Below are positions 32,480 to 64,000 of a stretch of 64,000 nucleotides of DNA, in pieces (positions within the stretch are counted from its first letter, which is position 1; each line of letters starts with the position of its first letter). The position numbers were made by a program, and so were the translations under genes. The notes below the pieces were generated by a model that had not been told where the DNA came from, did no database searches, and saw only the letters and a program-made list of their open reading frames with translations. The DNA is from Jiangella asiatica (lineage in GTDB: Bacteria > Actinomycetota > Actinomycetes > Jiangellales > Jiangellaceae). Location: assembly GCF_004349065.1 (NCBI RefSeq), contig NZ_SMKZ01000003.1, positions 62,001 through 126,000 of the forward strand, in the 5' to 3' direction.

Positions 32480-33550
32480 TCATGAGGTGAGTCCTGCCGG
32501 CGGTTCGGCGATCGAGACGCCGAGGATCGGCGTGCAGGCGAGGTTCAGCTGACGGGGTTCGCCGTCGTCGTTGTCCAGTAGGTCCAAGAGCAGCCGGACG
32601 GCCTCCCGGCCCATCTGCTCGCGGGGCAGTGAGAAGCGCGTCCAGTCGCGGGCGCGCTCGCCGAGGGGCGGGTCGCCGAGCAGAACCACCGAGCAGTCCT
32701 CGGGAATGCGAACAGCGGCCTCGGCGGCGGCTCGCTCGACTGCGACGATCGTGGAGTCGTCCTCGCTCGGTTCCACGAGCAGGGCCGTTACGCCGGTGGA
32801 CAGCCAGCCGCGCAGCAGGTCACCCGTGATGACGCCGGAGTCGTCGACCGTGTGGACCATGCTGCTTTCTTCGGGGATCCCCACATCACCCAGACCCTGC
32901 CTGAAGCCGGCCTCGCGGTCCCGGGTCGGTTCCTGATCGCCGCTCAGCTTCAGGTACGCGAGATGCCGATGACCACGATCGGCGAGCGTTCGGACCATGT
33001 CCCGAGTGGCGCCCACGTAGTCGGCGGCGACGTACGACAGCTCCGCATCAGGGACCTCGCGGCGTCCGATGAACACGAACGGGAAGTCCTCATGGACGAG
33101 TGCGGCCAGGTCGTCACGGTGCAGGTGGCGGCCGAGAAGCACGCAACCGTCGGCCACCTTGAGCCGATTGACCCCGCCAGCGTAGATGCGCCGTGTGCCC
33201 CCGTCGGTGGCCGAGCTGAACAGCAGCAGGTCATAGCCATACCGAGCCGTCGCCTCCTCGACGCCCAGCAGGAACGGGAAGTAGAAGTCCCGCTGGTCCA
33301 CCGGGAACACCGGCTCGAACGTGTACAGGCCGAGCATCCGGGTGCGTCCGCCCTTGAGTCTGCGGGCTGCGGCGTTGACCGTGTAGCCGAGTTCGGCGGC
33401 GGCCTGGAGCACCGCCCGGCGCGTCTTCTCGGCGACCTGGTCACTCGCCGCGCCACCGCTGATGACCAGCGAAACCGTCCCCTGGGAGACGCCGACACGC
33501 CGGGCTATGTCCACCTGGGTGGGGCGCCTCCGTTGCGCTGCCATGGCCAT
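32480..33550 (-). CDS. LacI/GalR-family transcriptional regulator, operon head
   Basis: The 356-aa regulator has an N-terminal LacI helix-turn-helix (RRPTQVDIARRVGVSQGTVS, about 8-28), the hinge TVNAAARRLKGGRTRMLGLY, and a periplasmic-binding-like effector domain (about 65-345). It resembles the LacI protein at 43225, sharing LGLYTFEPVFPVDQRDFYFP versus GVYTFESMFPMDHHDFYHP. The first ATG (33550) or the third codon (33544) may be used. As first gene of the 15-kb operon it probably represses the whole unit until an imported sugar or product binds. A perfect palindrome ends 5 bp upstream of its start. Confidence 0.93.
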   Translation of the reverse strand: MAMAAQRRRPTQVDIARRVGVSQGTVSLVISGGAASDQVAEKTRRAVLQAAAELGYTVNAAARRLKGGRTRMLGLYTFEPVFPVDQRDFYFPFLLGVEEATARYGYDLLLFSSATDGGTRRIYAGGVNRLKVADGCVLLGRHLHRDDLAALVHEDFPFVFIGRREVPDAELSYVAADYVGATRDMVRTLADRGHRHLAYLKLSGDQEPTRDREAGFRQGLGDVGIPEESSMVHTVDDSGVITGDLLRGWLSTGVTALLVEPSEDDSTIVAVERAAAEAAVRIPEDCSVVLLGDPPLGERARDWTRFSLPREQMGREAVRLLLDLLDNDDGEPRQLNLACTPILGVSIAEPPAGLTS

Positions 33551-33554
33551 CCCT

Positions 33555-33564
33555 AATACGTATT
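33555..33564. promoter_or_regulatory. Palindrome AATACGTATT, candidate LacI operator
   Basis: A perfect 10-bp palindrome with a central CG lies 4 bp before the ATG of the LacI gene at 33550. LacI-family operators typically have this symmetry. It resembles the GATAATACGCATCA sites near 49 kb, next to the operon of the paralogous LacI. Autoregulation is inferred. Confidence 0.5.
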
Positions 33565-41614: not shown

Positions 41615-43225
41615 TCAGTAGTAGGTCACGGTCGGCCAGGCGAGTTCGCCTCCCTGGCGGACGAGTTCGTCCTGGACGTCGCGAAGCAGACCGGGGGTCG
41701 CGGTCACCTCGTGTGGTTCGCTACGGCGGGTCGTGCAGAACGCCGCCACCAGGCCGGCCGCCTCACCGATGCCCCATTCGACCGGGTGCAGCCGGTAACA
41801 GCCGTTGGTGATGTGCGTGGTCCCGATGTTCTTGCCCGCGGCGAGGAGGTTGCGTACGCGTCGAGGTACGAGTGCACGCAGCGGGATCTGGAACGGCCAC
41901 GCCGGCACGTCGATGTAGTTGTCGCCCCGGCAGGAGGGGTGCAGGTCGATGCGGTAGGACCCGATGCCCACGCTGTCCTCGTAGGTCACCGGCCCGTCGG
42001 GGCGAACGGCGACCGCGAGGTCCTGTTCAGGGATGCGGTATTGCGCGCGGATCCGGCGTGACTCGCGGATGTACGGCCGCATGGCCAGTCCGTCGGCGGT
42101 CCCGGACACATCGGGACGCGGCCGGAGTCCTGGCCACCCGGTGCCGCCGTCGGGCCGCGGTGCTTCGGTCTGCAGCCAATAAAGGAAGCTGCGGCTCTGC
42201 GCCCGTGCCGCGGCAACGTGCGCCTCGTTCTCCTCCGGGCTGCCACCGAGAACGGGCCCGCCGAGATAGTCGATCATGGGCCAGTTCACGACGGTCACGT
42301 CGCTGCCGAAGACCCCGCGCCGGAAGTGGTTGCGGGCGAGGATCCGGCGGAACGTCCACAGCTCGTCCGACCCCGGATCCTTGCTCTGATCAGCGACGAT
42401 GCTCCCCGGCTCGTCGTCGGGGTTGGGCTGGAACGCGTACCGGCGCGGTTCCAGCGTATGCGGGTGAGGGGCGACCCAGCCGAACTGCGGGCCGTGCCAC
42501 CATCGCGGCTCCACGGCGCGCCAGGCGGCGTAGTCGTCCGGCTTGTCGATCGTGTGGTCTTCGCCGTCATGATGGGAGACGGCGAAGCACACCGAGACCG
42601 CCTGCATGTTCAGCGCGTCGGCCACGTCGGCCGCATGTGGCTCGCCGGTCTCGTCGCGCGACTCCGCGCCGGTCACGAACTCGGTACCGCTGAGCGCAAG
42701 AAGCTCACCGGTCTCGGTGGCGTCGAGCACGAACCGAGCGGTGACGACGACGTCACGCCCGCTGTCGAGGTCTCGGAACGCGACGGCCTGGACGCGATCG
42801 CCGTCGACGTCCGCGGACTGGGGCACGTGCTGGCGGAGGACGACGAGGGCGCCCGCGGCCTGCCACGGCGCGAGCATCGCATCGATGACGGCCAGCGCGA
42901 CGCGTGGTTCGTGACACAGGGGGCCTACTCTGCCCGCTCCGGGGTTCAGGTGTGGAACCTCGCGGGACACCGACCGCAACGGATACCACTGGCGGTAATA
43001 GGAGCGCACGGCGTCGCGGAAGCGCCGATACCGTGCGGTCGCACCGAAGGACTCGATCCACGGGTGCTCGTCCGGTGGTACGAGCTGCGTGGTCAGCTGG
43101 CCGCCGAGCCACGTGGTCTCCTCCGTGAGGATGACGCGCGCTCCACCGGCCACGGCAGCCAGCGCTGCGGCGACCCCGCCCAGCCCACCTCCGACAATGA
43201 GGATGTCGGCGTGGTGCTCCGTCAC
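41615..43225 (-). CDS. FAD-dependent oxidoreductase (PF12831-type), paralogue B
   Basis: The 536-aa flavoprotein is colinear with the one at 25572. It has GGGLGGVAAALAAVAGGARV at about 11-30, LGGQLTTQLVPPDEHPWIES, YWLQTEAPRPDGGTGWPGLR, and the terminal FAD segment NLLAAGKNIGTTHITNGCYR, EWGIGEAAGLVA. The GTG at 43225 shares one base with the LacI stop (TAGTG). The open frame extends upstream but would overlap LacI entirely. Two close paralogues in two LacI-controlled transport operons of the same window imply related chemistry on related substrates. Confidence 0.9.
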   Translation of the reverse strand: MTEHHADILIVGGGLGGVAAALAAVAGGARVILTEETTWLGGQLTTQLVPPDEHPWIESFGATARYRRFRDAVRSYYRQWYPLRSVSREVPHLNPGAGRVGPLCHEPRVALAVIDAMLAPWQAAGALVVLRQHVPQSADVDGDRVQAVAFRDLDSGRDVVVTARFVLDATETGELLALSGTEFVTGAESRDETGEPHAADVADALNMQAVSVCFAVSHHDGEDHTIDKPDDYAAWRAVEPRWWHGPQFGWVAPHPHTLEPRRYAFQPNPDDEPGSIVADQSKDPGSDELWTFRRILARNHFRRGVFGSDVTVVNWPMIDYLGGPVLGGSPEENEAHVAAARAQSRSFLYWLQTEAPRPDGGTGWPGLRPRPDVSGTADGLAMRPYIRESRRIRAQYRIPEQDLAVAVRPDGPVTYEDSVGIGSYRIDLHPSCRGDNYIDVPAWPFQIPLRALVPRRVRNLLAAGKNIGTTHITNGCYRLHPVEWGIGEAAGLVAAFCTTRRSEPHEVTATPGLLRDVQDELVRQGGELAWPTVTYY

Positions 43226-44280
43226 TACTGGCTCCTGTCCTTCGGGCCGCTGGTCTCTCCAGCGACGAATGTGCATGGCAACGTCACCGTCTCGGCGTCG
43301 GCTTCGTCCGACTCGATCTGTCGGATCAGGAGGTCGACGGCGAGGGCCCCCATCTCCCGGCGCGGTATACGGAAGCACGTGAGCTCCGGCCCCGGTACGC
43401 CGTCCGGCGGGTCGTTGAGTGCGGCCACCGAGCACCGGCGAGGGACATCCAGGCCGAGCTCGGTGAGGATGGCGTGGATGCGCAGGGCGACTACCGACTC
43501 GTGCGCCAGGAACGCGGTGGCTCCAGCCGTGAGTAGTCCCTCGACGTCGCTCCGGGCCGGTCCGGCGTCGCGGTCGACCGGAACGACGAGTCCATCCGTG
43601 CGGAGTCCGTGCCTCGTCCGCGCCGCCGTGAACCCGGCGTCTCGGTCGTCCGACGGCTCGCTCGGCGTCCGCGCCGGGAGATACGCGATGGTCGTGTGAC
43701 CGAGGGCGACAAGGTGGTCGACGACCTCCTCGGTGGCCTTGGCGTAGTCGGCACCGACGAAGGCCACGCCGTCGCCGGGGATGTCGCGCCGGCCGACCAG
43801 GACGAACCGGAATCCCTCGTCACGCAGCCGGACGATGTCGTCACGGTCGGTCTCCTTGCCCAGCAGGACGCATCCGTCGGCCAGCCTGAGCCGGTTGACG
43901 CCGTCGCGGTAGACGGACCTGCCCCCGTCGGCGCCCGTCGCACTGGTGAACAGCACCATGTCGTAGCCGAGTGCCTCCGCCCGTGCCTCGATGCCGACCA
44001 GGAACGGGTGGTAGAAGTCGTGATGATCCATCGGGAACATCGACTCGAACGTGTACACGCCGATCAGCCGGTTGGTTCCGCCGGCGAGGCTCCTGGCGAC
44101 GGGGTCGGCGACGTAGCCGAGCGACCGGGCCACCTCCAGCACTCGTTGCCTGGTCTCCGGCGGAATGCGGACCGTCTCCGACTCGCGGTCGTTGATGACC
44201 AGCGAGACCGTGGTCTGCGACACCCCCGCGAGCTTGGCGATGTCGGCCTGGCGGGGTCGCCGCCGCCCCGTGCTGGTCAC
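43225..44280 (-). CDS. LacI/GalR-family transcriptional regulator
   Basis: The 351-aa regulator has the helix-turn-helix RRPRQADIAKLAGVSQTTVS (about 7-26), the hinge PVARSLAGGTNRLIGVYTF and a sugar-sensing domain. It shares many blocks with the LacI at 32480 (VNRLRLADGCVLLGKE versus VNRLKVADGCVLLGRH). The GTG at 44280 overlaps the DUF4127 stop (GTGA). The gene is internal to the sugar ABC operon it probably controls. Candidate operators of the LacI symmetry lie in the operon promoter near 48.95 kb and before the divergent secreted protein. Confidence 0.92.
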   Translation of the reverse strand: MTSTGRRRPRQADIAKLAGVSQTTVSLVINDRESETVRIPPETRQRVLEVARSLGYVADPVARSLAGGTNRLIGVYTFESMFPMDHHDFYHPFLVGIEARAEALGYDMVLFTSATGADGGRSVYRDGVNRLRLADGCVLLGKETDRDDIVRLRDEGFRFVLVGRRDIPGDGVAFVGADYAKATEEVVDHLVALGHTTIAYLPARTPSEPSDDRDAGFTAARTRHGLRTDGLVVPVDRDAGPARSDVEGLLTAGATAFLAHESVVALRIHAILTELGLDVPRRCSVAALNDPPDGVPGPELTCFRIPRREMGALAVDLLIRQIESDEADAETVTLPCTFVAGETSGPKDRSQ

Positions 44281-51966: not shown

Positions 51967-51986
51967 CTACGATAACGGTTTCGTAG
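51967..51986. promoter_or_regulatory. Operator-like palindrome 1 of the glycan operon
   Basis: CTACGATAACGGTTTCGTAG is a 20-bp near-palindrome with a central CG and perfect outer arms CTACGA/TCGTAG. Its core CGATAACGGTTTCG matches the sites at 52046 and 62587. It lies about 107 bp upstream of the GTG at 52093, before a TTGACA box at 52010-52015. Confidence 0.6.
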
Positions 51987-52009
51987 ACAAAATCAGCGGT
52001 GCCAGGCTA

Positions 52010-52059
52010 TTGACACCGTCATTCCGATCCATCAACGTAGGATCACGAATACGATTTCG
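52010..52059 (+). promoter_or_regulatory. Promoter elements and operator-like palindrome 2 of the glycan operon
   Basis: TTGACA (52010-52015) is a consensus -35. The best -10-like hexamer, TAGGAT (52038-52043), is 22 nt further, longer than ideal. CGAATACGATTTCG (52046-52059) follows directly and shares 13 of 14 bases with the site at 62587. A repressor bound here would overlap the transcription start. Confidence 0.55.
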
Positions 52060-52092
52060 AAGCCGGCAGAGGGTCGGTTCGAGGAGGCGCGA

Positions 52093-53727
52093 GTGGCCAC
52101 GCACGAGCTGAGCTTCGACCCACGGCATCCGTGGTATCCGGTTCCCAATGTGCCCGGTGCTGAATGGAGTGTCGAGGTCTTCACCGTCGACGACGTCAGG
52201 CTGCTCGATCCCCGAAGGACCACCTTCGAGGGAGGAAGCCTGCTGGCTGACGGTCTGACGTGGCCGGGTGCTCAGCGCAACGTGGCCGGGCGGGTCCGCG
52301 CGGACCTGATGATCGCACCCGGCGGGGACGCCGTGACCTGGCGGATCCGGGCCGAGGCCGACGTGCCGGTCAAGGCGATCAAGCTGCTGTTCCGTGGACT
52401 TCCCGGCGGTGCCGAGGACGGATGGTGGTCGCCGACCACACCCCGCGACGTCGCGCTCACGCCGCGCCCGGACGAGCCGGTGCTGCTGCGCTATCCGTGG
52501 CCCAACTGGCAGACGCCGTGGATCTGCCAGGGCGAAGGCCCCGCCGTGACGCTGAGCACGCGGGACACCGAGGTGCGCGCCAAGCGCTTCTACACCTTCC
52601 TCCCGCCGTGGTCGCCGTCCGCGGTCACCGAGGTCGTCTGCGACCAGCTGGCGACCCGTCGCACGCCGGACTTCGAGGCCCCGCCGATCGTGCTCCGCAC
52701 GTGCGCGGACGTCGCCGCCGTCCACGCCGACCTGGCCGAACACCTCGAGCACGTGGAGCGCTCCTTCGGCCTGGCCGACTGGGAAGACCGCGCGGACGTA
52801 CCGGACTGGGCCCGCGACATACGGCTCGTCGTCACGTTGCACGGCCAGCACTGGACCGGCTACGTCTTCAACACCTTCGACGACATGGGGCGCATCCTCG
52901 AGGAGGTCACGCGGCACGTGCCCGGCGAACACGTGCTCGCTTACCTGCCCGGCTGGGAAGGCCGGTACTACTGGCAGTACCCCATCTACCGTCCGGGGGA
53001 GGACCTCGGCGGCGCGGACGGCTTCCGGCGGCTGACGCAGACCGCGCGGCGGCTCGGCGTGCATCTGATGCCGATGTTCGGGGCCAACGGCGCCAACGTC
53101 GGCCGGTACCCGCGGTGGGAGGACGCCGCCTTCCGCAGCGCCGGCGACCGGTACGTCGTGCACGTCAACCACCCGGACTGGGACGGTGACCGGACGCGAG
53201 AGGACGACCAGGTCTTCCTCAACCCCGGCGAGCCGGAGTACCGGGCCTTCCTGCGCGAGCAGATCGGCGAGCTGGTCACGTCGTACGACGTGGCCGGGGT
53301 GTTCCTCGACACCAGCGCCTGCTGGTTCGACGACCCGCGCCACGAGCTGTACGCCGGCTACCGGGCGCTGGTGGGGGAGCTGCGCGAGGCACATCCCGGC
53401 CTGCTCGTCTGCGGTGAGGGCTGGTACGACGCGTTGCTCGGGCTGCTGCCGGTCAACCAGACCTGGCTCGACGTCGCCCGGCCGCCGCGGACTCCCGACC
53501 TGCCCTACCGGTACTCGCGCGTGCTCGGCCATCTCAACAGCGGCTGCCCGGGACAGGGCAGCACCGGGGTCCACGAGGGCGGTTTCCGGGAGCCGGCCAA
53601 GCCGCTGCGCGTGCCCGGGTTCGTCCCGTCGCTGGGCTTCGTGTCCGACACGCTCGAGCGCTACGCCGACGACGTCGCGGCGTTCTGCCGGGAAGTCGGC
53701 GGGCGTGAGGACGGGAGGCAGCGGTAG
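52093..53727 (+). CDS. Unclassified TIM-barrel glycoside-hydrolase-like protein
   Basis: The 544-aa protein has no signal peptide. An N-terminal beta-sandwich-like part (about 1-210) is followed by a barrel (about 230-530) with strands YLPGWEGRYYWQYPIY, LGVHLMPMFGANGANVG and GVFLDTSACWFDD. Asp406 (FLDTSA) and Glu442 (VCGEGWYD) sit at strand ends, as do nucleophile and acid/base residues in retaining clan-A-like glycosidases. I cannot place it in a named GH family. The GTG at 52093 follows GAGGAGG. As first gene of an operon with sulfatases and sugar permeases it probably cleaves an imported sulfated oligosaccharide. Confidence 0.75.
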   Translation: MATHELSFDPRHPWYPVPNVPGAEWSVEVFTVDDVRLLDPRRTTFEGGSLLADGLTWPGAQRNVAGRVRADLMIAPGGDAVTWRIRAEADVPVKAIKLLFRGLPGGAEDGWWSPTTPRDVALTPRPDEPVLLRYPWPNWQTPWICQGEGPAVTLSTRDTEVRAKRFYTFLPPWSPSAVTEVVCDQLATRRTPDFEAPPIVLRTCADVAAVHADLAEHLEHVERSFGLADWEDRADVPDWARDIRLVVTLHGQHWTGYVFNTFDDMGRILEEVTRHVPGEHVLAYLPGWEGRYYWQYPIYRPGEDLGGADGFRRLTQTARRLGVHLMPMFGANGANVGRYPRWEDAAFRSAGDRYVVHVNHPDWDGDRTREDDQVFLNPGEPEYRAFLREQIGELVTSYDVAGVFLDTSACWFDDPRHELYAGYRALVGELREAHPGLLVCGEGWYDALLGLLPVNQTWLDVARPPRTPDLPYRYSRVLGHLNSGCPGQGSTGVHEGGFREPAKPLRVPGFVPSLGFVSDTLERYADDVAAFCREVGGREDGRQR

Positions 53728-53729
53728 CC

Positions 53730-55103
53730 GTGCCACCTCGTCAGCGTCCGAACATCATCTTCATCACGTGTCACGACCTGGGGCGGTTCCTCGGCTGTTA
53801 CGGGGTCGAGACGGTGCGGTCGCCGGCTCTCGACGCGTTGGCGGAGGAGAGCGTGGTGTTCGAACGGGCCCACTGCACCGCGCCGCAGTGCAGCCCGTCG
53901 CGGGCGTCCCTGTTCACCGGGCGCTATCCGCACTCGACCGGCGTGATGGGGCTGACCCAGCCACCGTTCGAGTGGGACCTGCGCCCGCAGGAGCGGCATG
54001 TGGCGAGCCTGCTGGGTGGCGCCGGCTACCGCACGGCGTTGGTCGGCATCCATCACGAGTCCAAGACCGGCAGCGACGACGCCGTCGCCGAGCGACTGGG
54101 CTTCGACGTGGTCCATCAGCGGGGACAGCGCGGCGAGGACGTGACGGCGCTGGCGACGGCGCAGCTGGGAGAGCTGGCGGGCGGGGACCGGCCCTTCTAC
54201 CTCCAGGTCGGGTATCTCGAGCCGCACCGGCTGCGGCCGCGGGAGCGCACCGAAGACGGCTACCAGGGGTTTCTGGGCGACTACATCGAGCCCGACGCCC
54301 AGCGAGGGGTGACGGTCCCCGGGTACCTCGTCGACGACGCCCGGGCTCGGGAGGAGCTCGCGGAGCTGCAAGGGGCGGTGCGATACCTGGACACCCAGAT
54401 CGGCCATCTGATGGCGGCCGTCGACCGCCTCGGGGTGCGCGACGACACCGTCGTCGTGTTCGTTACCGATCACGGCCTCGCCCTACCGAGGGCCAAGTGC
54501 AGTCTGTACGACCCGGGCCTGGAGATCGCCCTGATGGTTCGCTACCCTGCGGCGGGCTGGGGCGGCCGTCGCCGGTCGGAGCTCGTGTCCGGCGTGGACC
54601 TCGTGCCGACGCTGCTCGAGGCCGCCGGCGCGGAGCCGGCGAACCAGATCCAGGGGACCAGCCTGTCGCCTCTCCTGGACGCGTCGCCGGCCCGGCCGTG
54701 GTCACGCGACGCCGTGTTCGCCGAGTTCACGTATCACGAGTACTACGACCCGCGCCGGTGCGTGCGTACCGACCGGCACAAGCTGATCGCCAACTTCAGC
54801 GTGGCGCCGGCCTTCATGGACTGTTCGTCCTCGTGGGACCGGCGGACCCGACCCCGGGTGCCGATGAACGTCCCGACGGGCTTCCATCCGCCCGTCGAGC
54901 TGTACGACCTCGAGCTCGATCCGCTGGAGGTGTCCAACCTGGCCGGCGAACCCGACCACCTCAGCGTCGAGACCGACCTGCTCGGCCGGCTGCACACCTG
55001 GATGCGGGACACCGGCGACCCGCTGCTTGCCGGCGCGGTGACCCCGCCCCTGCACGCGTCGGCCATGCGGTCGCTGACGGGGACGGGGGTGATCCGCCGA
55101 TGA
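53730..55103 (+). CDS. Sulfatase (S1), HDxG-type, sulfamidase-like subgroup
   Basis: The 457-aa intracellular sulfatase has the metal strand NIIFITCHDLGRFLGCYG (His-Asp variant), formylglycine motif CSPSR at Cys54-Arg58, and VTDHGLALPRAKCSLYDPG. It is the nearest relative here of the sulfatase at 19673; both share LFTGRYPH and the PRAK-LYDPG block. The GTG at 53730 lies 2 nt after the glycosidase-like gene with GGGAGG upstream. The ATGA at 55100-55103 overlaps the next permease gene. N-sulfatase activity is suggested by the subgroup name only and is not proven. Confidence 0.91.
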   Translation: MPPRQRPNIIFITCHDLGRFLGCYGVETVRSPALDALAEESVVFERAHCTAPQCSPSRASLFTGRYPHSTGVMGLTQPPFEWDLRPQERHVASLLGGAGYRTALVGIHHESKTGSDDAVAERLGFDVVHQRGQRGEDVTALATAQLGELAGGDRPFYLQVGYLEPHRLRPRERTEDGYQGFLGDYIEPDAQRGVTVPGYLVDDARAREELAELQGAVRYLDTQIGHLMAAVDRLGVRDDTVVVFVTDHGLALPRAKCSLYDPGLEIALMVRYPAAGWGGRRRSELVSGVDLVPTLLEAAGAEPANQIQGTSLSPLLDASPARPWSRDAVFAEFTYHEYYDPRRCVRTDRHKLIANFSVAPAFMDCSSSWDRRTRPRVPMNVPTGFHPPVELYDLELDPLEVSNLAGEPDHLSVETDLLGRLHTWMRDTGDPLLAGAVTPPLHASAMRSLTGTGVIRR

Positions 55104-56062
55104 GTTCGGCGATCACCGGTCATCAGGACCTCCTGTCCGCACCGGATGCACGCCGGAGCCGCTCGCGGCGGCTCGGACGACAGCAGTTGTGGATCTGGCT
55201 CCTGCTGACGCCCACCGTCGTGCTCTACGGGCTGTACACGGTGTATCCGGTGATCGCGAGCTACTGGTACTCGTTCGTGGAGTGGAACGGGTTCGAGTCG
55301 CAGAAGCGGTTCGTGGGACTCCAGAACTTCCGGGACGTCTTCGCCGATGACCTGTTCTGGAACTCGTTCAAGGTCACGCTCCTGTTCATGGTCGTGGTCG
55401 TGCCGCTCAAGGTCATCCTCAGCCTGTTGCTCGCGATCGTGCTCAACTCGCCGAAGCTGCCGTTCTCGACGCTGCTGCGCACCGCGTACTTCCTGCCGGT
55501 GGTCACCACGACGGCCATCGTGGGCGTGGTGATGCAGTTCGTCTTCGACCCCGCCAGCGGCCCGGCCAACCAGCTCCTGCGCACGTTCGGCGTCTCCGAG
55601 GGCGTGAACTTCCTGGGTGACTCCTCGACGGCGCTCTGGACGGCCGCCGGGGTGTACGTGTGGAAGTGGTTCGGCATCACGATGATCTACTGGCTGGCCG
55701 CCCTGCAGACCATCCCGGACGAGGTGTACGAGGCGGCGCGGATGGACGGCGCGGGCGCGCTGCGGCTGCTTCGTCACATCACGCTGCCCCTGCTGAGGCC
55801 GTTCCTCATCATCATCACGCTGCTGTCGCTCGAGTCGTCGCTGCGGGTCTTCGACCTCGTGCTGACCTTGACCGGCGGCGGTCCCTTCTACTCGACCGAG
55901 GTGGTCGAGATCTACATCTACCGGTGGGCGTTCAGCGCGACCATCCCCCAGCTCGGCTACGCCTCGGCGGCCGCGGTGATCTTCGGGTTGTTCGTCTTCT
56001 TCGTCGGACTGTTCCAGCTCCTGGGCATCAGGTCGGTACAGAGGGCGAGGGCGGCATCATGA
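55100..56062 (+). CDS. Carbohydrate ABC transporter permease, MalF/UgpA type
   Basis: The 320-aa permease has six membrane helices. The first is WIWLLLTPTVVLYGLYTVYP, followed by FVEWNGFESQKRFVGLQNF typical of MalF/LacF types, and the coupling loop DEVYEAARMDGAGALRLLRH. The ATG overlaps the upstream sulfatase stop and the next permease start overlaps its stop, so all are co-translated. Neither a binding protein nor an ATPase gene is present in this operon within the window. Confidence 0.93.
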   Translation: MSSAITGHQDLLSAPDARRSRSRRLGRQQLWIWLLLTPTVVLYGLYTVYPVIASYWYSFVEWNGFESQKRFVGLQNFRDVFADDLFWNSFKVTLLFMVVVVPLKVILSLLLAIVLNSPKLPFSTLLRTAYFLPVVTTTAIVGVVMQFVFDPASGPANQLLRTFGVSEGVNFLGDSSTALWTAAGVYVWKWFGITMIYWLAALQTIPDEVYEAARMDGAGALRLLRHITLPLLRPFLIIITLLSLESSLRVFDLVLTLTGGGPFYSTEVVEIYIYRWAFSATIPQLGYASAAAVIFGLFVFFVGLFQLLGIRSVQRARAAS

Positions 56063-56967
56063 CCTCCGTCATCACGACCCGCACCCGCGAGACAGCGCCT
56101 ACCGAGCGCACGCGGCGCAACCGCTGGAGCACGGGCCGGCTGCTGCGGCGCCTGCCGTGGTGGCTGATCGCGCTGGTGCTTCTCGGCGGTGCGTTGCTGT
56201 GGGTGTATCCGTTCCTGTGGATGCTCTCGGCATCGCTGAAGGACAACATCGAGGTCTTCAGCTCCAGCCTGTCGCTGCTGCCGGAGTCAGCGGTGTTCGA
56301 GAACTACGGCCGGGCCTGGAGCGACGCCAACTTCAGCGGGTACATGTGGAACACGATCATCGTGACGGTCGTGACGGTCGTCCTCGTGGTCATCCGCTGT
56401 GCGATGGCGGGCTACGTCATCGGCAGGTACGGCTTCTTCGGCAAGAAGACCGTCGTCGTCGTCCTCGTCGCGACGTTGTTCGTACCGACCGGCTACACGA
56501 TCATCCCGGTCGTCGACATCACCCAGCAGCTCGGCTTGTTGAACTCACTGACGGGCATGATCATCGCGCTGTCCGGTGGCGGGCACGTGGCCGCGATCCT
56601 GCTCTACGCCGGGTACTTCCGTCAGGTGCCTCGCGAGCTCGAGGAGTCCGCAACGGTCGACGGCGCGGGGTTCTTCACGATCTTCCTGCGCATCATGCTG
56701 CCGCTGGCGAAACCGATCACGGCCACCGTCACGCTGCTGACGTTCCTGTCGACGTGGAACGCGTTCTTTCTTCCGCTCGTGTTCACCTTCTCACGACCCG
56801 ACCTGCGCACGCTCAGCGTCGGCATGCAGGCGTTTGTCGGCGAGAACACCACGGACTGGGCCGGGATGGCGGCGGCGGCCACCATATCGCTGGTTCCCGT
56901 CATCGTCTTGTTCGTGGTTCTGCAACGCAGATTCGTCGAGGGCTTCGCGGGAGCGATCAAACAATGA
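56059..56967 (+). CDS. Carbohydrate ABC transporter permease, MalG/UgpE type
   Basis: The 302-aa permease has an Arg-rich N-terminus, a first helix at about residues 36-56 and PFLWMLSASLKDNIEVF, a MalG-group signature. The coupling loop is RELEESATVDGAGFFTIFLR and the C-terminal end is RRFVEGFAGAIKQ. It pairs with the MalF-type gene before it and overlaps the following sulfatase by ATGA (56964-56967). The substrate is inferred to be a sulfated oligosaccharide from its neighbours. Confidence 0.93.
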   Translation: MTSVITTRTRETAPTERTRRNRWSTGRLLRRLPWWLIALVLLGGALLWVYPFLWMLSASLKDNIEVFSSSLSLLPESAVFENYGRAWSDANFSGYMWNTIIVTVVTVVLVVIRCAMAGYVIGRYGFFGKKTVVVVLVATLFVPTGYTIIPVVDITQQLGLLNSLTGMIIALSGGGHVAAILLYAGYFRQVPRELEESATVDGAGFFTIFLRIMLPLAKPITATVTLLTFLSTWNAFFLPLVFTFSRPDLRTLSVGMQAFVGENTTDWAGMAAAATISLVPVIVLFVVLQRRFVEGFAGAIKQ

Positions 56968-58424
56968 CCGACCGAAACGCCGCGCGACGCCGGCCCAACA
57001 TCCTGCTGATCTGCACCGACCAGCAGCGCTACAGTGCGCTGGGCGCGTACGGGAACGACGAGATCGACACGCCGACCCTGGACCGGCTAGCCGCCGAGGG
57101 TGTGCTGTTCGAGAACTGCTATGTGCAGAACCCGGTGTGCGGGCCGTCCCGTGCCAGCCTGATGACCGGCCGCTACGTGCAGTCCCACGGCCAGTGGGCG
57201 AACGGCGTCGCGCTGCCCGAGCACGAGCAGCTGTTCAGCCGGGTGCTGGCTGGCGCCGGATACGACTGCGGGCTGGTCGGGAAGCTGCATCTCGCCGCGT
57301 GTTTCGGCGGACGGACCGAACCGCGCCACGACGACGGGTTCCGGGTGTGGCGCTGGGCGCACGACCCCGGACATCGCTCGCCTGAGAACCAGTACCACCG
57401 CTGGCTGCAGGAGGAGCATCCCGACCTGTGGCGGGCCGTGAACGACCCGAACACGCCGACGACCTTCGCCAACATCGAGACCCGGGGCCACTTCAGCCGC
57501 TGGATCTCCACCGAGACGATCGACTTCCTCCGCAACGGTCGTGAACGCGCCAGGCCGTTCTTCGTCGTGGCGAACTTCTTCGATCCCCATCACGCCTTCG
57601 ACGCGCCCGAGGAGTACGTCAAGCGGTACGACCCGGAGACGCTGAGCCGGCCGGTGACGCGGGCCGGTGAGCTGGCCGGCAAGCCGTCCATCTTCACGGA
57701 GGCCTCCGCCCGCTCCTACGCCGGGCACGAGCGGGGCTACGTCGAGTACTCGCCAAGCGAGCTGCAGGAGACCAAGGCCGCCTACTACGCGATGGTCTCG
57801 CTGATCGACGACGAGGTGGGCCGCATCCTGGACGCACTCGAGGCGGAGGGCCTGGCCGACGACACCCTGGTGATCTTCACCAGCGACCACGGCGAGATGC
57901 TCGGCGACCACCAGCTGATGCTCAAGGGACCGATGATGTACGAGCCGGCGGTGCGCGTGCCCCTCATCCTGCGCTGGCCGGGCGCGCTGCCGGCCGGGCA
58001 TCGTCGCGCCGAGTTCGTGCAGTGGATCGACCTCGCGCCGACGATCCTGGAGGCGGCCGGGCTGGACCCGATGCGGCGTGGGCAGGGCGAGACACTGCTG
58101 CCGCTGGCCCGGGGCGACCACGCGAGCTGGACGCGCGACTGGGCGATCTGCGAGTACCGGGACAGCGGGCACTCCTACGACCCGCCGGTCCACACGACCA
58201 TGTTGCGCCACGACCGGTGGAAGCTCGTCGTCCACCACGGTCCGCCGTCCACGGCGCGCGATCGCGCGGGGGAGCTGTACGACTTGGCCGCGGATCCGCA
58301 CGAGCTCGACAACAGATGGGACGATCCCGCGTTTGTGCAGTCGCGCATCGAGCTGCAGGAGTTGTTGCTGGACGTGCTCGTCGCCACCCAGGACCGCACC
58401 CAGCCGCGCGAAGCGCACTGGTGA
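56964..58424 (+). CDS. Sulfatase (S1), TDQQR type
   Basis: The 486-aa sulfatase has no signal peptide. It has NILLICTDQQRYSALGAYG, formylglycine motif CGPSR at Cys59-Arg63, and TSDHGEMLGDHQLMLKGPM, the second metal-binding block typical of the choline-sulfatase/TDQQ branch. It resembles the sulfatase at 14864 in type but is not a close copy. The ATG overlaps the permease stop. It is the second sulfatase of this operon, again of a different subfamily from the first, implying stepwise removal of two sulfates. Confidence 0.93.
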   Translation: MTDRNAARRRPNILLICTDQQRYSALGAYGNDEIDTPTLDRLAAEGVLFENCYVQNPVCGPSRASLMTGRYVQSHGQWANGVALPEHEQLFSRVLAGAGYDCGLVGKLHLAACFGGRTEPRHDDGFRVWRWAHDPGHRSPENQYHRWLQEEHPDLWRAVNDPNTPTTFANIETRGHFSRWISTETIDFLRNGRERARPFFVVANFFDPHHAFDAPEEYVKRYDPETLSRPVTRAGELAGKPSIFTEASARSYAGHERGYVEYSPSELQETKAAYYAMVSLIDDEVGRILDALEAEGLADDTLVIFTSDHGEMLGDHQLMLKGPMMYEPAVRVPLILRWPGALPAGHRRAEFVQWIDLAPTILEAAGLDPMRRGQGETLLPLARGDHASWTRDWAICEYRDSGHSYDPPVHTTMLRHDRWKLVVHHGPPSTARDRAGELYDLAADPHELDNRWDDPAFVQSRIELQELLLDVLVATQDRTQPREAHW

Positions 58425-58484
58425 TGCGTCGTCCTGAGGCGTCACCGCGGTACTACGACGTGCCCCACTCGGGAGAGGCCCGCC

Positions 58485-61400
58485 ATGCCTGTTGACAGTG
58501 CCACGATCGACCGCCGTCGGTTCATCCTCGGGTCGGGCGGCGTGATCGCCGCTCCGGTCCTCTTGGGCGGGGATCCGGCCGCCGCGTCGGCCGCACCGGC
58601 GGGTGACGCCATGCCGACGGACCTGGCCGCCCAGTCGTGCGATCTCACGCTGCGCTGGCGCCATCTCGAGGCTCGCGTCGTCCGCGACGGGCTCGTGGCG
58701 GCCTGGCCGATGGACGAGGGCACCGGATACGTGTTCGACGACGTCAGCGGTCGCGGCCACGACTTCCACATCACCGGGTCGCGGTGGAACACCACCGACA
58801 GTGGACTGGTCGACGCGTTCCGCCGACCCGGCCGCCGCGGCGGCGGCGTCTTCCTGGACGGCACCCGGTGGCTGCAGGCACAACAGGCCAGCGACCTGGA
58901 CCTGAACGGCGCGCCGGCCGGGATGACCCTCACCGCGTGGGTCCGTCCCACCGAAGGGCCCGGCGAGCGGGCGACGCTGCTGTCGTACGGCGACGCCTAC
59001 GCGCTGACCCTGGCCAGCGACGGAGCGTTGCGCTTCACCGTCCGGCGCCACGACGGCGAGTACCGGTCCGTCGAGTCCGATCCTCTGGCGGTCCCGCCGG
59101 GCCGGTGGACGCACGTCGCGGCGGTGACCTGGCCCGGGGCGAGCCGGCTCACACTGACGGTCGACGGCCGGACCGTCCGCCGGTTCGCAGTGCCGGCGTC
59201 GATCCGCACGCCTGCCACGGACGACCTCGTCGCGGGGGTCGCCCTGCACGGCCAGCTCGACGAGCTCACGCTGCACGACCGCGCCCTCGACCCGGACGAG
59301 GTACGCGGCCTGTACCTGGTGGGTCTGCCCAGGGTCTACACGCAGAGCCGGGAGACCATCGACGCCGACTCGCGGGAGTGGACGTCGTTCAGGGGCAGCG
59401 ATCCCATCCCGCACCCGGTCGAGGCGGACACGGTGCTGGCCGTGCGCTTCGACGGCGACACCGGGCCGGTGCACGGACGCGGCCGGGTGGCCGACGAGTC
59501 GGCCGGCCTCGAGCCCGGTCACTTCGGCGGTGCGCTGCGGGCGACCGGCGGCACGGGCGTCGCGTACGAGTCGCCGCTGGGTGCGCCGTCCGGCACCTGC
59601 GAGGTGTGGTACCAGACCGTCGTGGACGACGCGGACCCGGACCGGTCCGAGCGCAAGGAACTGGTGCGCGCGGAGGGCGACCGCTGCGGCCTGGCCCTCT
59701 ACACCGAGGCGGGCAGGTGGCACGCGACCCTCCGAATCGCCGGAGCGGCAGCTCGCACCGTCTCCGGACCCGCGCAAACGTTCGTGCCCGGCCAGCTCGA
59801 GCACGTCGCCGTCGCGTGGGGACCGCACGGCGGCCAGGATGCACTGTCGCTGCACGTCAACGGTGTCGAGGTGAGCCGCGAGCCCATCGATCTGGCCGGT
59901 CGCGTCTTCGACCGGCACGTCGTCGTCGGCGGCAGCCGGACCGCGCCCGCGTACTGCCTGGTCGACGACCTCCGGCTCAGCGACCGGGTGCGGACCTGGG
60001 GGGAGATCTGCCCACGTGGCCACGCGGCCACCGACGCGGCCGGGCTCGACCTGCGCGACGGCTTCGACCGAGCACCCGGCACGGCGCCGAGGTGGTGGCG
60101 CCCGGCCTCCGGGGGCGCCGCCTGGTCACACGAACGCAAGACGTGGGAGGACCCGAGCCGCACCGGAGACGCACCGGAGCGGGCCACCGCCCTGCTCCAG
60201 CGGGAGGTCGCCGGGCTGCATCCGATCCACCACCCCGACGCATACGGGCACGCGTCGTCCATCGAAGCGGGCGTGTCGTTCGCCGCCGTCGCCGACGGCT
60301 GGGCCGGTGTCTTCGTCCAGGCCTCCGCGCCGGAGGAGCCGTTCTCCGGGCACACGTTCGCGGTAAACCCCGGCCGCGGACAGCTGCGCATAGCGCGCTA
60401 CGCGGCGGGCGCACCCGTGGAGGCGAAGACGCTTCCGTACGACTTCCCGACCCGGGCCGCGACGACGTACGAGCTCACGCTCACCGCGACCGGCGACGGC
60501 CTGCTGCGCGGCTTCGTCGACGGGCACAACCTGATCACGATGCGTGTGGGCGACGGCGCACCGGCGTCCGGCCACGCGGGCCTGTTCACGCATGACGCCG
60601 CGGCCTTCTTCGACGACGTCCACGTCACCGCGCTGACCCCGGCTCGGCCCGCGTCCCGCCTGGTCCAGCTGCGCCTGTTCACCACCGGCGGCGAGGTCGA
60701 GGCGCGGGGGGTGCGCCTCGAACCGTTCCGGTGGCACAAGCGGCGAGGGCTGCCACCGTGGCAGTACACCAGACAGGGTGAGGAGTTCCCGGGCGACCCC
60801 GAGCTGCCGGGGAACCTCGCCGGCGCCGACACACCGACGCCGGAGCGCCCGATCCCGCCGGCGTTCTGGCGCTCGGAGGACAGCGCCAACAGTGAGCTGG
60901 TGACGATCGACGGCCGGGTGGTGTTTTTCATGCGCGGGAACCCGCGGGTCGGCGGCCGTTCGATCGGTGCCCGCATCGGCGTCCTGGAGACGACCGTCGA
61001 CACGTTCGACGGGATCCACTTCCAGGACCCCAGCGCGGGCATCACCGACCTCGACGATTGCAAACTCCTGCAGGGACCCGTCGACGAGTCTCCGGAGGAG
61101 ATGCGCCACCAGGAGCGCTTCCAGCTCAACGACGAGGGGTGTGCCTACGTCGGGGACGGGCGGCTGCTCCTGTTCGCCAAGGAGTTCCGCAACAAGGTCG
61201 GCGACTTCCCGTCGTACCGCCGCCTGATCTACGGCTACTACGACGTCCGTGCCGACGACTGGGTGGACGGGGAGTCCCGCTACGTCGACTGGTCGGCCAT
61301 GGATCCGGGCGACCCCGAGGCGGTGTTCCAGGGGATCGAGGGCACGCCGGAGCTCGTCTCGCTGCGCGACCCGGACACCGACGACTATCGCGTGCTGCTG

Positions 61401-61889
61401 TACCACCAGGCCACGACCGGCGACGACCGGCGAGTCATGGGGATCACCGGACTGCGGCTGGCCGGCGACGGTGTGCCCGTCCTCGACCCGGAGCACCCCA
61501 CCGTCCACTCGATCGGCCGGCCGTCGAACAAGGTCGTCTACAGCTTCCGCGTCCTGTTCGACAACGGCATCTACTACCTGCACTACGCCGAGGGCCCGCA
61601 GACCCCGGACTGGCCCGACTACTTCGTGCTCGGCGCGGCTCTCGACCCCTACGGCGGGCCATGGATCGTGAACGAGGACACCAACGCCGACGACGCGACG
61701 TACTTCCGGCACGGCGAGCGGTACGAGCCCGACAACGCCGCGATCTGGCAGGGGACCATGCTCAAGCTGCGGGGCCGCTACTACATGTACTACGAGAACT
61801 ATCACGCCATCGGGACGAACCTGGACCAGCAGTACTCGAACTACAACCATCCACAGGCGGGCTCGCGCGTCGGCTACGCCACCGCGTGA
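58485..61889 (+). CDS. Giant Tat-exported LamG-domain protein with C-terminal beta-propeller (GH43-like)
   Basis: The 1134-aa protein has a twin-arginine signal (DRRRFILGSGG, cleavage near residue 38). Two concanavalin-A/LamG-like domains follow at about 70-275 (LVAAWPMDEGTG, WVRPTEGPGERATLLSYGD) and 315-500 (DTVLAVRFDGDTGP, DDLRLSDRVRTWGE), then a third sandwich at about 510-735. The C-terminus (about 800-1134) has propeller-like strands (SANSELVTIDGRVVFFMRGN, MLKLRGRYYMYYENYHAIG) like GH43/clan-J enzymes, but catalytic acids cannot be assigned. The ATG at 58485 follows GGGAGAGG. It probably binds or cleaves the polysaccharide outside the cell. A paralogue starts at 62668. Confidence 0.82.
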   Translation: MPVDSATIDRRRFILGSGGVIAAPVLLGGDPAAASAAPAGDAMPTDLAAQSCDLTLRWRHLEARVVRDGLVAAWPMDEGTGYVFDDVSGRGHDFHITGSRWNTTDSGLVDAFRRPGRRGGGVFLDGTRWLQAQQASDLDLNGAPAGMTLTAWVRPTEGPGERATLLSYGDAYALTLASDGALRFTVRRHDGEYRSVESDPLAVPPGRWTHVAAVTWPGASRLTLTVDGRTVRRFAVPASIRTPATDDLVAGVALHGQLDELTLHDRALDPDEVRGLYLVGLPRVYTQSRETIDADSREWTSFRGSDPIPHPVEADTVLAVRFDGDTGPVHGRGRVADESAGLEPGHFGGALRATGGTGVAYESPLGAPSGTCEVWYQTVVDDADPDRSERKELVRAEGDRCGLALYTEAGRWHATLRIAGAAARTVSGPAQTFVPGQLEHVAVAWGPHGGQDALSLHVNGVEVSREPIDLAGRVFDRHVVVGGSRTAPAYCLVDDLRLSDRVRTWGEICPRGHAATDAAGLDLRDGFDRAPGTAPRWWRPASGGAAWSHERKTWEDPSRTGDAPERATALLQREVAGLHPIHHPDAYGHASSIEAGVSFAAVADGWAGVFVQASAPEEPFSGHTFAVNPGRGQLRIARYAAGAPVEAKTLPYDFPTRAATTYELTLTATGDGLLRGFVDGHNLITMRVGDGAPASGHAGLFTHDAAAFFDDVHVTALTPARPASRLVQLRLFTTGGEVEARGVRLEPFRWHKRRGLPPWQYTRQGEEFPGDPELPGNLAGADTPTPERPIPPAFWRSEDSANSELVTIDGRVVFFMRGNPRVGGRSIGARIGVLETTVDTFDGIHFQDPSAGITDLDDCKLLQGPVDESPEEMRHQERFQLNDEGCAYVGDGRLLLFAKEFRNKVGDFPSYRRLIYGYYDVRADDWVDGESRYVDWSAMDPGDPEAVFQGIEGTPELVSLRDPDTDDYRVLLYHQATTGDDRRVMGITGLRLAGDGVPVLDPEHPTVHSIGRPSNKVVYSFRVLFDNGIYYLHYAEGPQTPDWPDYFVLGAALDPYGGPWIVNEDTNADDATYFRHGERYEPDNAAIWQGTMLKLRGRYYMYYENYHAIGTNLDQQYSNYNHPQAGSRVGYATA

Positions 61890-61899
61890 AGCTCGCGAG

Positions 61900-62393
61900 C
61901 GGCGACTCAGCCGCCCTGCTGGGGAGGCGAACCCGTGATGACGCGTTCGACGAGGTGAGGTCGGCGACCGCCGCCTCTGCCTCGGCCGACTCCGCGTCCG
62001 TCCCGACGATCGGCGCCAGCAGGAGCCGGGCATGCGCCTCGGCGACCGGAGCGAAGTCGACTCCTTCCACGACCTCACGCACCGCGGTGTCGAGTTGGAG
62101 CATGTCCATGCCGTCGACTCCTGGTGCGATCGATCCGACCGAGCCGTCGACGGCGACGACGTACAACCCGTCCACGCCCAGCCGGTTGTGCAGCAACGCG
62201 GCGAGCCCTTCAGGTTCGCGGTACGGATCGCCGGGCCGCAGCGGCGGATCGTCGCCCGGCAGGTGGTGGGCCAGCACACGAACGCGGGATACGGCAGCTC
62301 GGCGATGTCGGCCCGGAGCAGCTCGGTGATCTGGTCGACACGGCCGCCGAGGTTCGAGACGGACGCGTCAGCCCTCACGGGTCTGATCCTCAC
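61900..62393 (-). pseudogene. Frameshifted gene of unrecognised family
   Basis: On the minus strand from about 62393 the sequence reads as protein (SNLGGRVDQITELLRADIAE, LPYPAFV). After a frame change near 62280 it continues plausibly (LAHHLPGDDPPLRPGDPY, EGLAALLHNRLGVDGLYVVA, LDTAVREVVEGVDFAPVAEA) to about 61900. The shift splits an apparently single-domain protein of about 150 aa. The downstream frame stays open into the end of the convergent giant gene without similarity. I do not recognise the family. It could be a sequencing error or a decayed gene. Confidence 0.45.
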
Positions 62394-62486
62394 ACCGACC
62401 GCTCGGGTATCCGTTGGTAGTCATCCACGCGCGAGCCACAACTCGAAAAGGCGCATCTGTGGCGTGATGTCGGCCCGCTGACCTCC

Positions 62487-62500
62487 TATATCGATTTCGT
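62487..62500. promoter_or_regulatory. Partial operator-like site CTATATCGATTTCG
   Basis: The right half CGATTTCG is identical to that of the sites at 52052 and 62593, while the left half is poorly conserved. It lies about 100 bp upstream of the strong site at 62587 and could be an auxiliary operator. Confidence 0.35.
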
Positions 62501-62551
62501 GAGCGCGACGGGGCGTCACGTGCTGCTTGCCAAGGCCCGCACGGTCAACTC

Positions 62552-62600
62552 TTGACATTAGCGTCACACCGGACACTATGGAGTTACGAATTCGATTTCG
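62552..62600 (+). promoter_or_regulatory. Sigma70-like promoter with overlapping operator palindrome
   Basis: TTGACA (62552-62557), a 16-nt spacer and CACTAT (62574-62579) form a good promoter for the gene at 62668. CGAATTCGATTTCG (62587-62600) begins 7 bp after the -10, covering the likely transcription start. It shares 13 of 14 bases with the site at 52046, before the first glycan operon. Confidence 0.65.
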
Positions 62601-62667
62601 CGACCAACGGAGGGTGGTTCAAACGGCGGGTGACCGCCCGACCCCAGCGAACGAGGTGGAGGTTCAA

Positions 62668-64000
62668 TTGACTACGAGCGGAATCCCACGACGTCGTTTT
62701 CTCGAGCTGTCCGGTGGTGTGGCCCTTGCCCCGGCCCTCCTCAATGGTCTGGGCGCGCCGGCATCGGCCAGCGCTGAGACCATGTCGGGCCCACCCGGCG
62801 TCGGTCAGGACGTGCCGCCGGCGTGGACCTGCGACTTGACCAGGAGATGGCTGCACGTCGAGCCGCGAGTGGCCATGCCGGGCCTGGTGGCGGCGTGGCC
62901 ATGTGACGAAGGGTCTGGATACGCGTTTCGCGACGTGACGGGCAACGGGCACACGCTGTACGTCATCGGCAGCAGGTGGAACACCTCCGACAGCGGACTG
63001 ATCTCCTCGTTCCGGCGGCAGGGTCGGCGCGGCGGCGGCGTCCACCTGGACGGAACTCGATGGCTGCAGGCCCAGCACACGCCCGCACTCGATGCTGGCG
63101 GCGCGCTCACGGTCTCGGTATGGGTCCGGCCGGCGGAGCTGCCGGAGGCGGAGGTGTCGTTGCTCGCCCTTCCGGGCCAGTGGTCCGTCGGCCTGACAGC
63201 TGCCGGCGCGATCCGGTGGACGGTGGTCGGCACGGACGGCAACCCGCGCACCGCTCAGTCGCCGGACCAGGCAGTCGTGGCCGGGAGATGGGCCCACGTC
63301 GCCGCCACGGCCAACGCGCACAGTGGCCGGCTGATCGTCTTTGTCCACGGGTCGCGCGTCCGGGTCGTCGACGTCCCCGCGTTCACGCCGGCCGGCACCG
63401 GCGACGACCTGATGGTCGGGGAGGGTCTGGTCGGTGACGTCGACGAGCCCGCCCTGTTCGACCGTGCTCTCGGCGCCGTGGCGGTCGAACAGCTCTACCT
63501 CGTCGGCGTCCCTCAGCTGTACACGCAGACCCGCGAGACTATCGACGCCAAACGCAGCGAGTGGACCCGGTTCAAGGGCAGCGAGCCGATTCCGCATCCG
63601 GTCGACACGGACACGGTCTTCTCCGCGCGCTTCGACGGATCGGCGGTATCTGACCAGGGTGCCGAGCCGGTCCGCGGTACCGCGTCGTTCCGGCCGGGGC
63701 GGTTCGGCGCGGCCCTGGCCGGATCGGACGACGGCATCGGCTACGCCTCACCCCTGGCCGGCTCGGACGGCACCTTCGAGGCCTGGTACGTCCCGACTGG
63801 CGGAAACCGAGGCGGCGAACTGTTCCGAGCGGCCGGCGCGCACGGCTGGCTCAGCCTGTCGCTCGTCGCGGACCGTTGGCGCGCGGACCTGGGCACCGGT
63901 GAGGTTACGACCCACACGGTGACAGGTCCGGCTCAGCGGCTGGTGACCTCGACGCTCGAGCACGTAGCCGTGGCCTGGGGAGACAGCGGCGGTGACCGAC
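62668..64000 (+). CDS. Tat-exported LamG-domain protein, paralogue of the giant protein, truncated by window end
   Basis: At least 444 codons are open to the window edge. The start is TTG at 62668 with GGTGGAGG about 5 nt upstream. The Tat signal is IPRRRFLELSGG. The sequence is colinear with the protein at 58485: LVAAWPCDEGSGYAF versus LVAAWPMDEGTGYVF, GSRWNTSDSGL, GVHLDGTRWLQAQ, and TQTRETIDAKRSEWTRF then GSEPIPHPVDTDTV. Two LamG-like domains are visible in the window. It has its own promoter and operator, so it heads a further unit downstream. Whether it keeps the C-terminal propeller cannot be seen. Confidence 0.85.
   Translation, partial: MTTSGIPRRRFLELSGGVALAPALLNGLGAPASASAETMSGPPGVGQDVPPAWTCDLTRRWLHVEPRVAMPGLVAAWPCDEGSGYAFRDVTGNGHTLYVIGSRWNTSDSGLISSFRRQGRRGGGVHLDGTRWLQAQHTPALDAGGALTVSVWVRPAELPEAEVSLLALPGQWSVGLTAAGAIRWTVVGTDGNPRTAQSPDQAVVAGRWAHVAATANAHSGRLIVFVHGSRVRVVDVPAFTPAGTGDDLMVGEGLVGDVDEPALFDRALGAVAVEQLYLVGVPQLYTQTRETIDAKRSEWTRFKGSEPIPHPVDTDTVFSARFDGSAVSDQGAEPVRGTASFRPGRFGAALAGSDDGIGYASPLAGSDGTFEAWYVPTGGNRGGELFRAAGAHGWLSLSLVADRWRADLGTGEVTTHTVTGPAQRLVTSTLEHVAVAWGDSGGDR

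Follow-up and report, generated by a model that had tools for sequence, protein, structure and literature searches.

The DNA analysed here, called the window below, is the whole 64,000-nucleotide stretch of Jiangella asiatica given by positions C68:62001-126000 of its 7.03 Mb genome (G000). Two transcription units near its end, each with sulfatase and LamG genes, are preceded by pairs of related sites, and another pair lies between a binding-protein gene and a lacI gene just outside the window. We put at roughly 0.87 the probability, judged from sequence, that these sites are operators of one local, self-regulated LacI repressor, which is encoded 11.3 kb beyond the second operator and would control three transcription units. 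An earlier note on this DNA had reported three motif cores starting at 51970, 52046 and 62587 and a weaker half-site, and all four were located there: CGATAACGGTTTCG at 51970-51983, CGAATACGATTTCG at 52046-52059, CGAATTCGATTTCG at 62587-62600 and the weaker 14-mer core CTATATCGATTTCG at 62486-62499. For scoring, a symmetric 20-bp matrix was trained on five sites, and the sixth (62483) was kept out of training. The six putative operators are listed below; positions given as L021:x convert to window numbering as 62000+x.

51967-51986, no strand assigned: distal operator of unit 1, CTACGATAACGGTTTCGTAG, 8 of 10 dyad pairs, matrix score 27.0 (22.6 when left out)
52043-52062, no strand assigned: proximal operator of unit 1, TCACGAATACGATTTCGAAG, 5 of 10 dyad pairs, matrix score 28.6 (26.8 when left out)
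62483-62502, no strand assigned: distal operator of unit 2 (the half-site of the earlier note), CTCCTATATCGATTTCGTGA, 5 of 10 dyad pairs, matrix score 22.2 (untrained)
62584-62603, no strand assigned: proximal operator of unit 2, TTACGAATTCGATTTCGCGA, 7 of 10 dyad pairs, matrix score 28.3 (23.9 when left out)
L021:11776-11795, in the gap between the binding-protein gene and lacI: best operator of all, CTACGAAATCGAATTCGTAG, 9 of 10 dyad pairs
L021:11870-11889: operator next to lacI, GCTCGAAATCGATATCGAGG, 8 of 10 dyad pairs, matrix score 24.9

The sites are about 20 bp long, have a family consensus of about CTACGAAWTCGAWTTCGTAG, carry a central CG in 6/6 cases and are all intergenic according to the gene calls of this analysis. 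All six display the form of a LacI operator as defined in a LacI-regulon survey (PMC4052901), namely an even palindrome of 16-22 bp with a central CG. They form pairs whose centre-to-centre distances are 76 bp at unit 1, 101 bp at unit 2 and 94 bp at the binding-protein gene, where the operator adjoining lacI makes up the second site. Helical phasing as a link between the paired sites was dropped as an idea, as these three distances share no obvious common phase.

The specificity of the motif was monitored by counting the 14-mer pattern CGAAWWCGATTTCG on both strands with a mismatch limit, using shuffles as controls for the window and the backwards pattern as a control for the genome. With up to two mismatches, the window contained nine strand-matches at five places, compared to an expectation of 0.61, and 0 of 100 shuffles reached nine. 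The earlier note had seen the motif only just upstream of the starts at 52093 and 62668; this was true of four places, but the fifth (44315) lies inside a DUF4127 coding gene. Without mismatches, the pattern occurred at three places in the whole genome, all three of them in this cluster and within a span of less than 22 kb (window 52046, window 62587 and C68:135779, the last 9.8 kb beyond the window end and 11.2 kb beyond the second proximal site of the window). Allowing two mismatches across the genome resulted in 145 strand-matches (69+76) versus 4 (3+1) for the backwards control. Inspection covered 28 distinct places outside the cluster (15 and 14, one common to both sets). Thirteen of the first 15 were in coding-like frames, and one of the other two (L016) resembled a tRNA T-loop by eye; in the second set, 7/14 were in coding-like frames and none scored above 17.2 on the matrix. 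At two mismatches, the 14-mer lacks specificity and makes a poor test; the 20-bp site is better suited.

The 20-bp matrix was applied to the window and to selected places and loci of the genome rather than to the genome as a whole. The six cluster sites scored 22.2-32.7, the best unrelated place in the window (within the DUF4127 gene) scored 18.7, and all own-genome places scored outside the cluster stayed at or below 18.7, a limit that holds for these selected places. In a leave-one-out analysis, the training sites scored 19.1-29.8 and the best unrelated window place 14.7-19.8, with each site beating its own control. The 20-mer CTACGAAWWCGATTTCGTAG with up to three mismatches recovered three of the six cluster sites and nothing more in the own genome; G020 and G015, both of one other genus, together had four matches. 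Many copies in unrelated genes, which the earlier note had named as a sign against the motif, were thus a feature of the loose 14-mer (145 strand-matches) but not of the 20-bp pattern, whose own-genome matches were confined to the cluster.

A further regularity was found in the promoter layout. TTGACA hexamers resembling -35 boxes lie ahead of the proximal operators:

52010-52015, plus strand: TTGACA (-35-like) of unit 1; the 14-mer core of its proximal operator follows after 30 bp
62552-62557, plus strand: TTGACA (-35-like) of unit 2; the 14-mer core of its proximal operator follows after 29 bp

At the binding-protein gene, TTGACA lies 31 bp ahead of the 14-mer core. The gap between TTGACA and operator was therefore near-fixed in 3/3 target units (30, 29 and 31 bp), which bears out the earlier description of TTGACA-type promoters beside the sites. 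TTGACA was counted 15 times in 236,000 strand-positions of the region (6.4e-5 per position), and a common spacing by chance is very unlikely, although it was noticed post hoc. If TTGACA serves as the -35 box, the operator would lie over the expected transcription start, the classic position for repression.

The earlier note had stated that the regulator was not within 50-64 kb and must lie downstream or elsewhere. Indeed, none of the 55 LacI helix-turn-helix (HTH) matches of the genome fell into that interval (two lie elsewhere in the window), and a lacI gene was found downstream, just outside the window:

L021:11947-12990, plus strand: lacI, 347 amino acids, divergent from the binding-protein (SBP) gene at L021:10088-11533 (minus strand)

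The note had also proposed a genome scan for a LacI gene preceded by the site. The 413-bp gap between the SBP gene and lacI, in which the third exact 14-mer match (C68:135779) lies, holds the best operator and a second one, which stops 57 bp short of the lacI start and one base short of a TATACT hexamer. In Pfam, the product matched the LacI HTH domain (PF00356, E 8.9e-17, residues 13-56) and, as C-terminal sensor domain, Peripla_BP_3 (PF13377, E 5.3e-41, residues 177-339). Judged by this N-terminal HTH and C-terminal periplasmic-binding-protein-like domain, the regulator belongs to the LacI-family transcription factors. None of the 18 named NCBIfam LacI equivalogs listed reached its cut-off (CytR 221 of 436, ccpA 217 of 442). 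The predicted recognition helix reads TPATVSKALN.

The target genes were grouped into operons according to close gene spacing, with unit 1 extending from 52093 to 61889 and unit 2 from 62668 to L021:10093:

52093-53727, plus strand: unit 1, gene 1, 544-amino-acid glycoside-hydrolase-like protein with a weak GHL10 match below cut-off
53730-55103, plus strand: unit 1, gene 2, sulfatase, PF00884, CSPSR
55100-56062, plus strand: unit 1, gene 3, ABC permease, PF00528
56059-56967, plus strand: unit 1, gene 4, ABC permease, PF00528
56964-58424, plus strand: unit 1, gene 5, sulfatase, PF00884, CGPSR
58485-61889, plus strand: unit 1, gene 6, 1134-amino-acid LamG protein with a twin-arginine translocation (Tat)-like N-terminus (by eye)
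62668-64000 and on to L021:4057 (66057 in extended window numbering), plus strand: unit 2, gene 1, LamG protein
Beyond the window, to L021:10093: remainder of unit 2, with SBP, sulfatase, UPF0261, cupin and Gfo/Idh/MocA oxidoreductase genes

The predicted regulon thus comprises 14 genes including lacI, and the three target units and lacI lie within one 23-kb stretch. The cluster contains three sulfatases, two permeases and two binding proteins. Because CxPxR is present in 3/3 sulfatases and a formylglycine-generating-enzyme match (2.2e-83) exists elsewhere in the genome, uptake and desulfation of a sulfated glycan is a reasonable reading of its function, and the description of the units as sulfated-glycan units in the earlier note appears sound. 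The LamG proteins of the two units are twins of about 1130 amino acids (window 58485-61889 and L021:668-4057) that are 54% identical to each other. Nothing besides LamG was found in them at 1e-3 in Pfam and NCBIfam, and their large C-terminal regions match no family searched. LamG relatives at E <= 1e-40 were absent from the 395 other phylum genomes (own genome, 1/396). It is possible that the twins represent a new glycan-active family.

We infer LacI binding, the direction of control (repression) and the inducer from the sequence as follows. Without inducer, a LacI dimer or tetramer would occupy the operators. Bound LacI would block unit 1 (glycoside-hydrolase-like protein, two sulfatases, two permeases and LamG protein) and unit 2 (LamG protein, binding protein, sulfatase, UPF0261, cupin and oxidoreductase), and it would also block the separate binding-protein gene and limit its own synthesis. 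The inducer would be a sugar released from the sulfated glycan, and the paired sites may raise occupancy or permit looping. The arrangement is that of a local regulon, with an operator before the regulator gene and few operons serving one purpose, as far as this can be read from family names.

In 59 relatives (60 genomes including the own one), the best match to the LacI was 44% identical. At E <= 1e-74, the protein was found in its own genome only (1/396 phylum genomes). Searches of genome contigs with the LamG protein and with the LacI protein gave no confirmed relative. The nearest LacI among 72,556 plasmid records was encoded on the Cnuibacter physcomitrellae plasmid NZ_CP020717.1 (L053) and was 49-50% identical; used as a query at 1e-80, the Cnuibacter protein found only the Jiangella genome described here (1/393 class genomes). 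In a LacI tree, our query and the Cnuibacter protein were placed outside a 16-row group at an unresolved fork, which shows nearest distance and not proven sisterhood. The Cnuibacter lacI is divergent from ABC permease genes, and the two best matrix sites in 27.9 kb (22.8 and 19.5) both lie within the 111-bp gap between them. The operon encodes a 37% relative of the 52093 protein. The Cnuibacter system shares with the one described here the LacI (49-50%), two matching sites in the lacI/permease gap, an ABC transporter and the 52093 relative. It differs by the presence of a carbohydrate-binding module (CBM) protein and by the lack of a sulfatase or LamG protein, none being annotated in 28 kb or detected by tblastn at 1e-8 with the window proteins. 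Scanning of 400 bp upstream of each of 19 more distant LacI homologues yielded one score of 19.1 (the site GTTCGAAACCGGTTTCGACG of L025, a 44% homologue), with the other 18 at or below 14.9. Ranked by matrix score, sites of this type are best at the closest LacI, and a single 44% relative has a related one.

The 52093 family was rare, with relatives at E 1e-5 in 4 of 72,556 plasmid records; 2 of 345 class genomes, own included, contained it, and no relative was found in phage records at 1e-5. Members of this family (540-550 amino acids) adjoin sugar ABC genes in Cnuibacter, Deinococcus and G018 and SusC/SusD-like genes in Hymenobacter. The regions of the relatives in Deinococcus, Hymenobacter and Gemmatirosa contained no good site (best scores 12.8, 15.5 and 9.3, respectively). 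When plasmids were searched with the separate binding protein, the six matches listed were about 31% identical or less. G018, a genome from the same family but another genus, encodes a 52093 relative (47-48% identical) near ABC genes and a LacI, and a site with a AATCGATT core is located before an SBP gene, with similar ones upstream of its LacI; however, this LacI is only about 33% identical, the arms are partly GTAATCGATT instead of CGAAATCGATT, and the matrix scores are 17.3-17.4. The G018 cluster looks like the same plan with another LacI.

Several observations weigh against a single local repressor acting at these sites. No clear -10 box was seen by eye at the target promoters, and about 250 bp separate the start codon of the SBP gene from the operator in front of it (more than 75% of LacI sites were 30-140 bp upstream in the survey; PMC4052901). 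Two of the six sites are poor palindromes; of the palindromic symmetry with central CG that the earlier note had described, the CG was present throughout, but the palindrome is loose at 52043 and 62483 (five of ten dyad pairs each). An own-genome LacI locus (L042) reached 17.7 on the matrix. The conservation in relatives that the earlier note had called for was supported in Cnuibacter, with two sites and a shared target family; in the 11 congeners searched, neither a close LacI (best 44%) that would allow a comparison nor a 20-bp site at up to three mismatches was detected, and conservation of regulator and operator together thus rests on one distant relative. Moreover, the second Cnuibacter site (19.5) scored hardly above the L025 site (19.1), and the site type is therefore not exclusive to this LacI. 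A last point of this kind is the number of LacI genes, since a paralogue could bind the same sites; besides the downstream gene, two of the 55 HTH matches lie in the window itself (43.2-44.3 kb and 32.5-33.6 kb).

The sites could accordingly be LacI operators whose main regulator is another paralogue, such as the LacI encoded 8 kb ahead of unit 1 (window 43225-44280). A moderate matrix match (18.7) is located just upstream of the likely start of this 44-kb LacI gene, but it falls within the coding end of the DUF4127 gene. The likely GTG start overlaps the DUF4127 stop codon (GTGA), and the gene therefore has no promoter gap of its own there. Its recognition helix, SQTTVSLVIN, also differs from the TPATVSKALN of the downstream LacI. 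Elsewhere in the genome, the only other places matching the 14-mer exactly or with one mismatch (C52:72348 and C61:11254) were in coding frames, the latter within the body of a LacI gene and not upstream of it. Two LacI genes further along the contig lacked a site in the 400 bp ahead of them, where the best scores were 5.9 and 2.5, and the other LacI upstream regions held no exact or one-mismatch 14-mer; the matrix, run on one of these (C56), gave 13.5. We consider control by a paralogue unlikely, and the downstream LacI stays the likely regulator. That the sites are functionless chance matches is very improbable. CGAA/TTCG-rich sequence is common through codon use, as reflected in the 145 loose strand-matches and in the 13/15 and 7/14 inspected places within coding-like frames; however, the 20-bp sites outscore every other own-genome place to which the matrix was applied, none of the six lies within a called gene, the TTGACA spacing is common to the three target promoters, and the best site adjoins a LacI gene. 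It is also quite unlikely that the LacI acts mainly as an activator, or that the distal sites are there solely for looping or for another protein, with proximal repression not the main effect. The distal sites at 51967 and 62483, one of them weak, do lie upstream of TTGACA, but in 3/3 promoters the proximal site follows TTGACA by 29-31 bp, where a bound protein would block RNA polymerase.

Other LacI genes and sites were noted in passing. The LacI gene at window 43225-44280 has ABC transporter genes upstream and belongs to a separate sugar cluster. At window 33555-33564, just before the LacI gene at 32480-33550 (minus strand), AATACGTATT forms a perfect 10-bp palindrome with a central CG; it is single copy in the window at up to one mismatch and is probably the own operator of that LacI. 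The site ATGCGAAACCCTTTTCGATA at G000:C56:44393 lies 100 bp upstream of a 41% LacI paralogue (C56:43306-44292) and appears to be of a related operator class whose centre differs. Another site, TCGAGAAATCGATTTCCAAT (L062:6054-6073 on contig C36 of G000; C36:51057), scored 17.2, and no coding-like frame was found over it; the nearest LacI match is about 4 kb away, and the site perhaps belongs to another regulator.

The proposed repressor ties 14 genes, several of undefined function, into one predicted regulon with a likely regulator named. It also makes the glycan testable, since one of its breakdown products is expected to act as the inducer of this LacI. A motif spotted by eye in raw sequence thus led to a fitting regulator beyond the window. 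A bolder idea, which we regard as rather doubtful, is that the LacI senses a sulfated-glycan product that no characterised LacI is known to sense, with the twin LamG and 52093 proteins being new enzyme classes and the whole an undescribed degradation pathway in this actinobacterial lineage. A literature search for five exact or consensus core strings found no occurrence in the papers searched, and one combining LacI with sulfatase returned nothing evidently on such a regulon, judged from the listing.

The nearest solved structures by sequence were those of Bacillus-type CcpA (1rzr and 1zvv), which is likewise of the LacI/GalR type over residues 9-338 (E about 2e-59). However, CcpA is a global catabolite regulator (PMC4052901), and the LacI described here scored 217 against the ccpA cut-off of 442. 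A closer parallel is provided by the local sugar LacI regulons of that survey, in which motifs are mostly even palindromes with a central CG, LacI genes are self-regulated in 72% of cases, local regulons make up about 90%, and tandem sites are found in about 20% of operons with spacing peaks at 13, 22 and 32 bp. Shared with these are the even palindrome of about 20 bp with its central CG, the site before lacI, two sites per promoter and a local gene set with an ABC transporter and glycan-active proteins. In contrast, the paired sites are 76-101 bp apart instead of at the peaks of 13, 22 and 32 bp, and the targets include three sulfatases and two LamG proteins, whereas the main text of PMC4052901 contains no word beginning with "sulfat". 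Unusual in this regulon are the sulfatase and LamG targets; the pair spacing of 76-101 bp and the far site of the SBP gene are also less common, while the regulatory circuit itself is ordinary and fits the known pattern of local LacI regulons.

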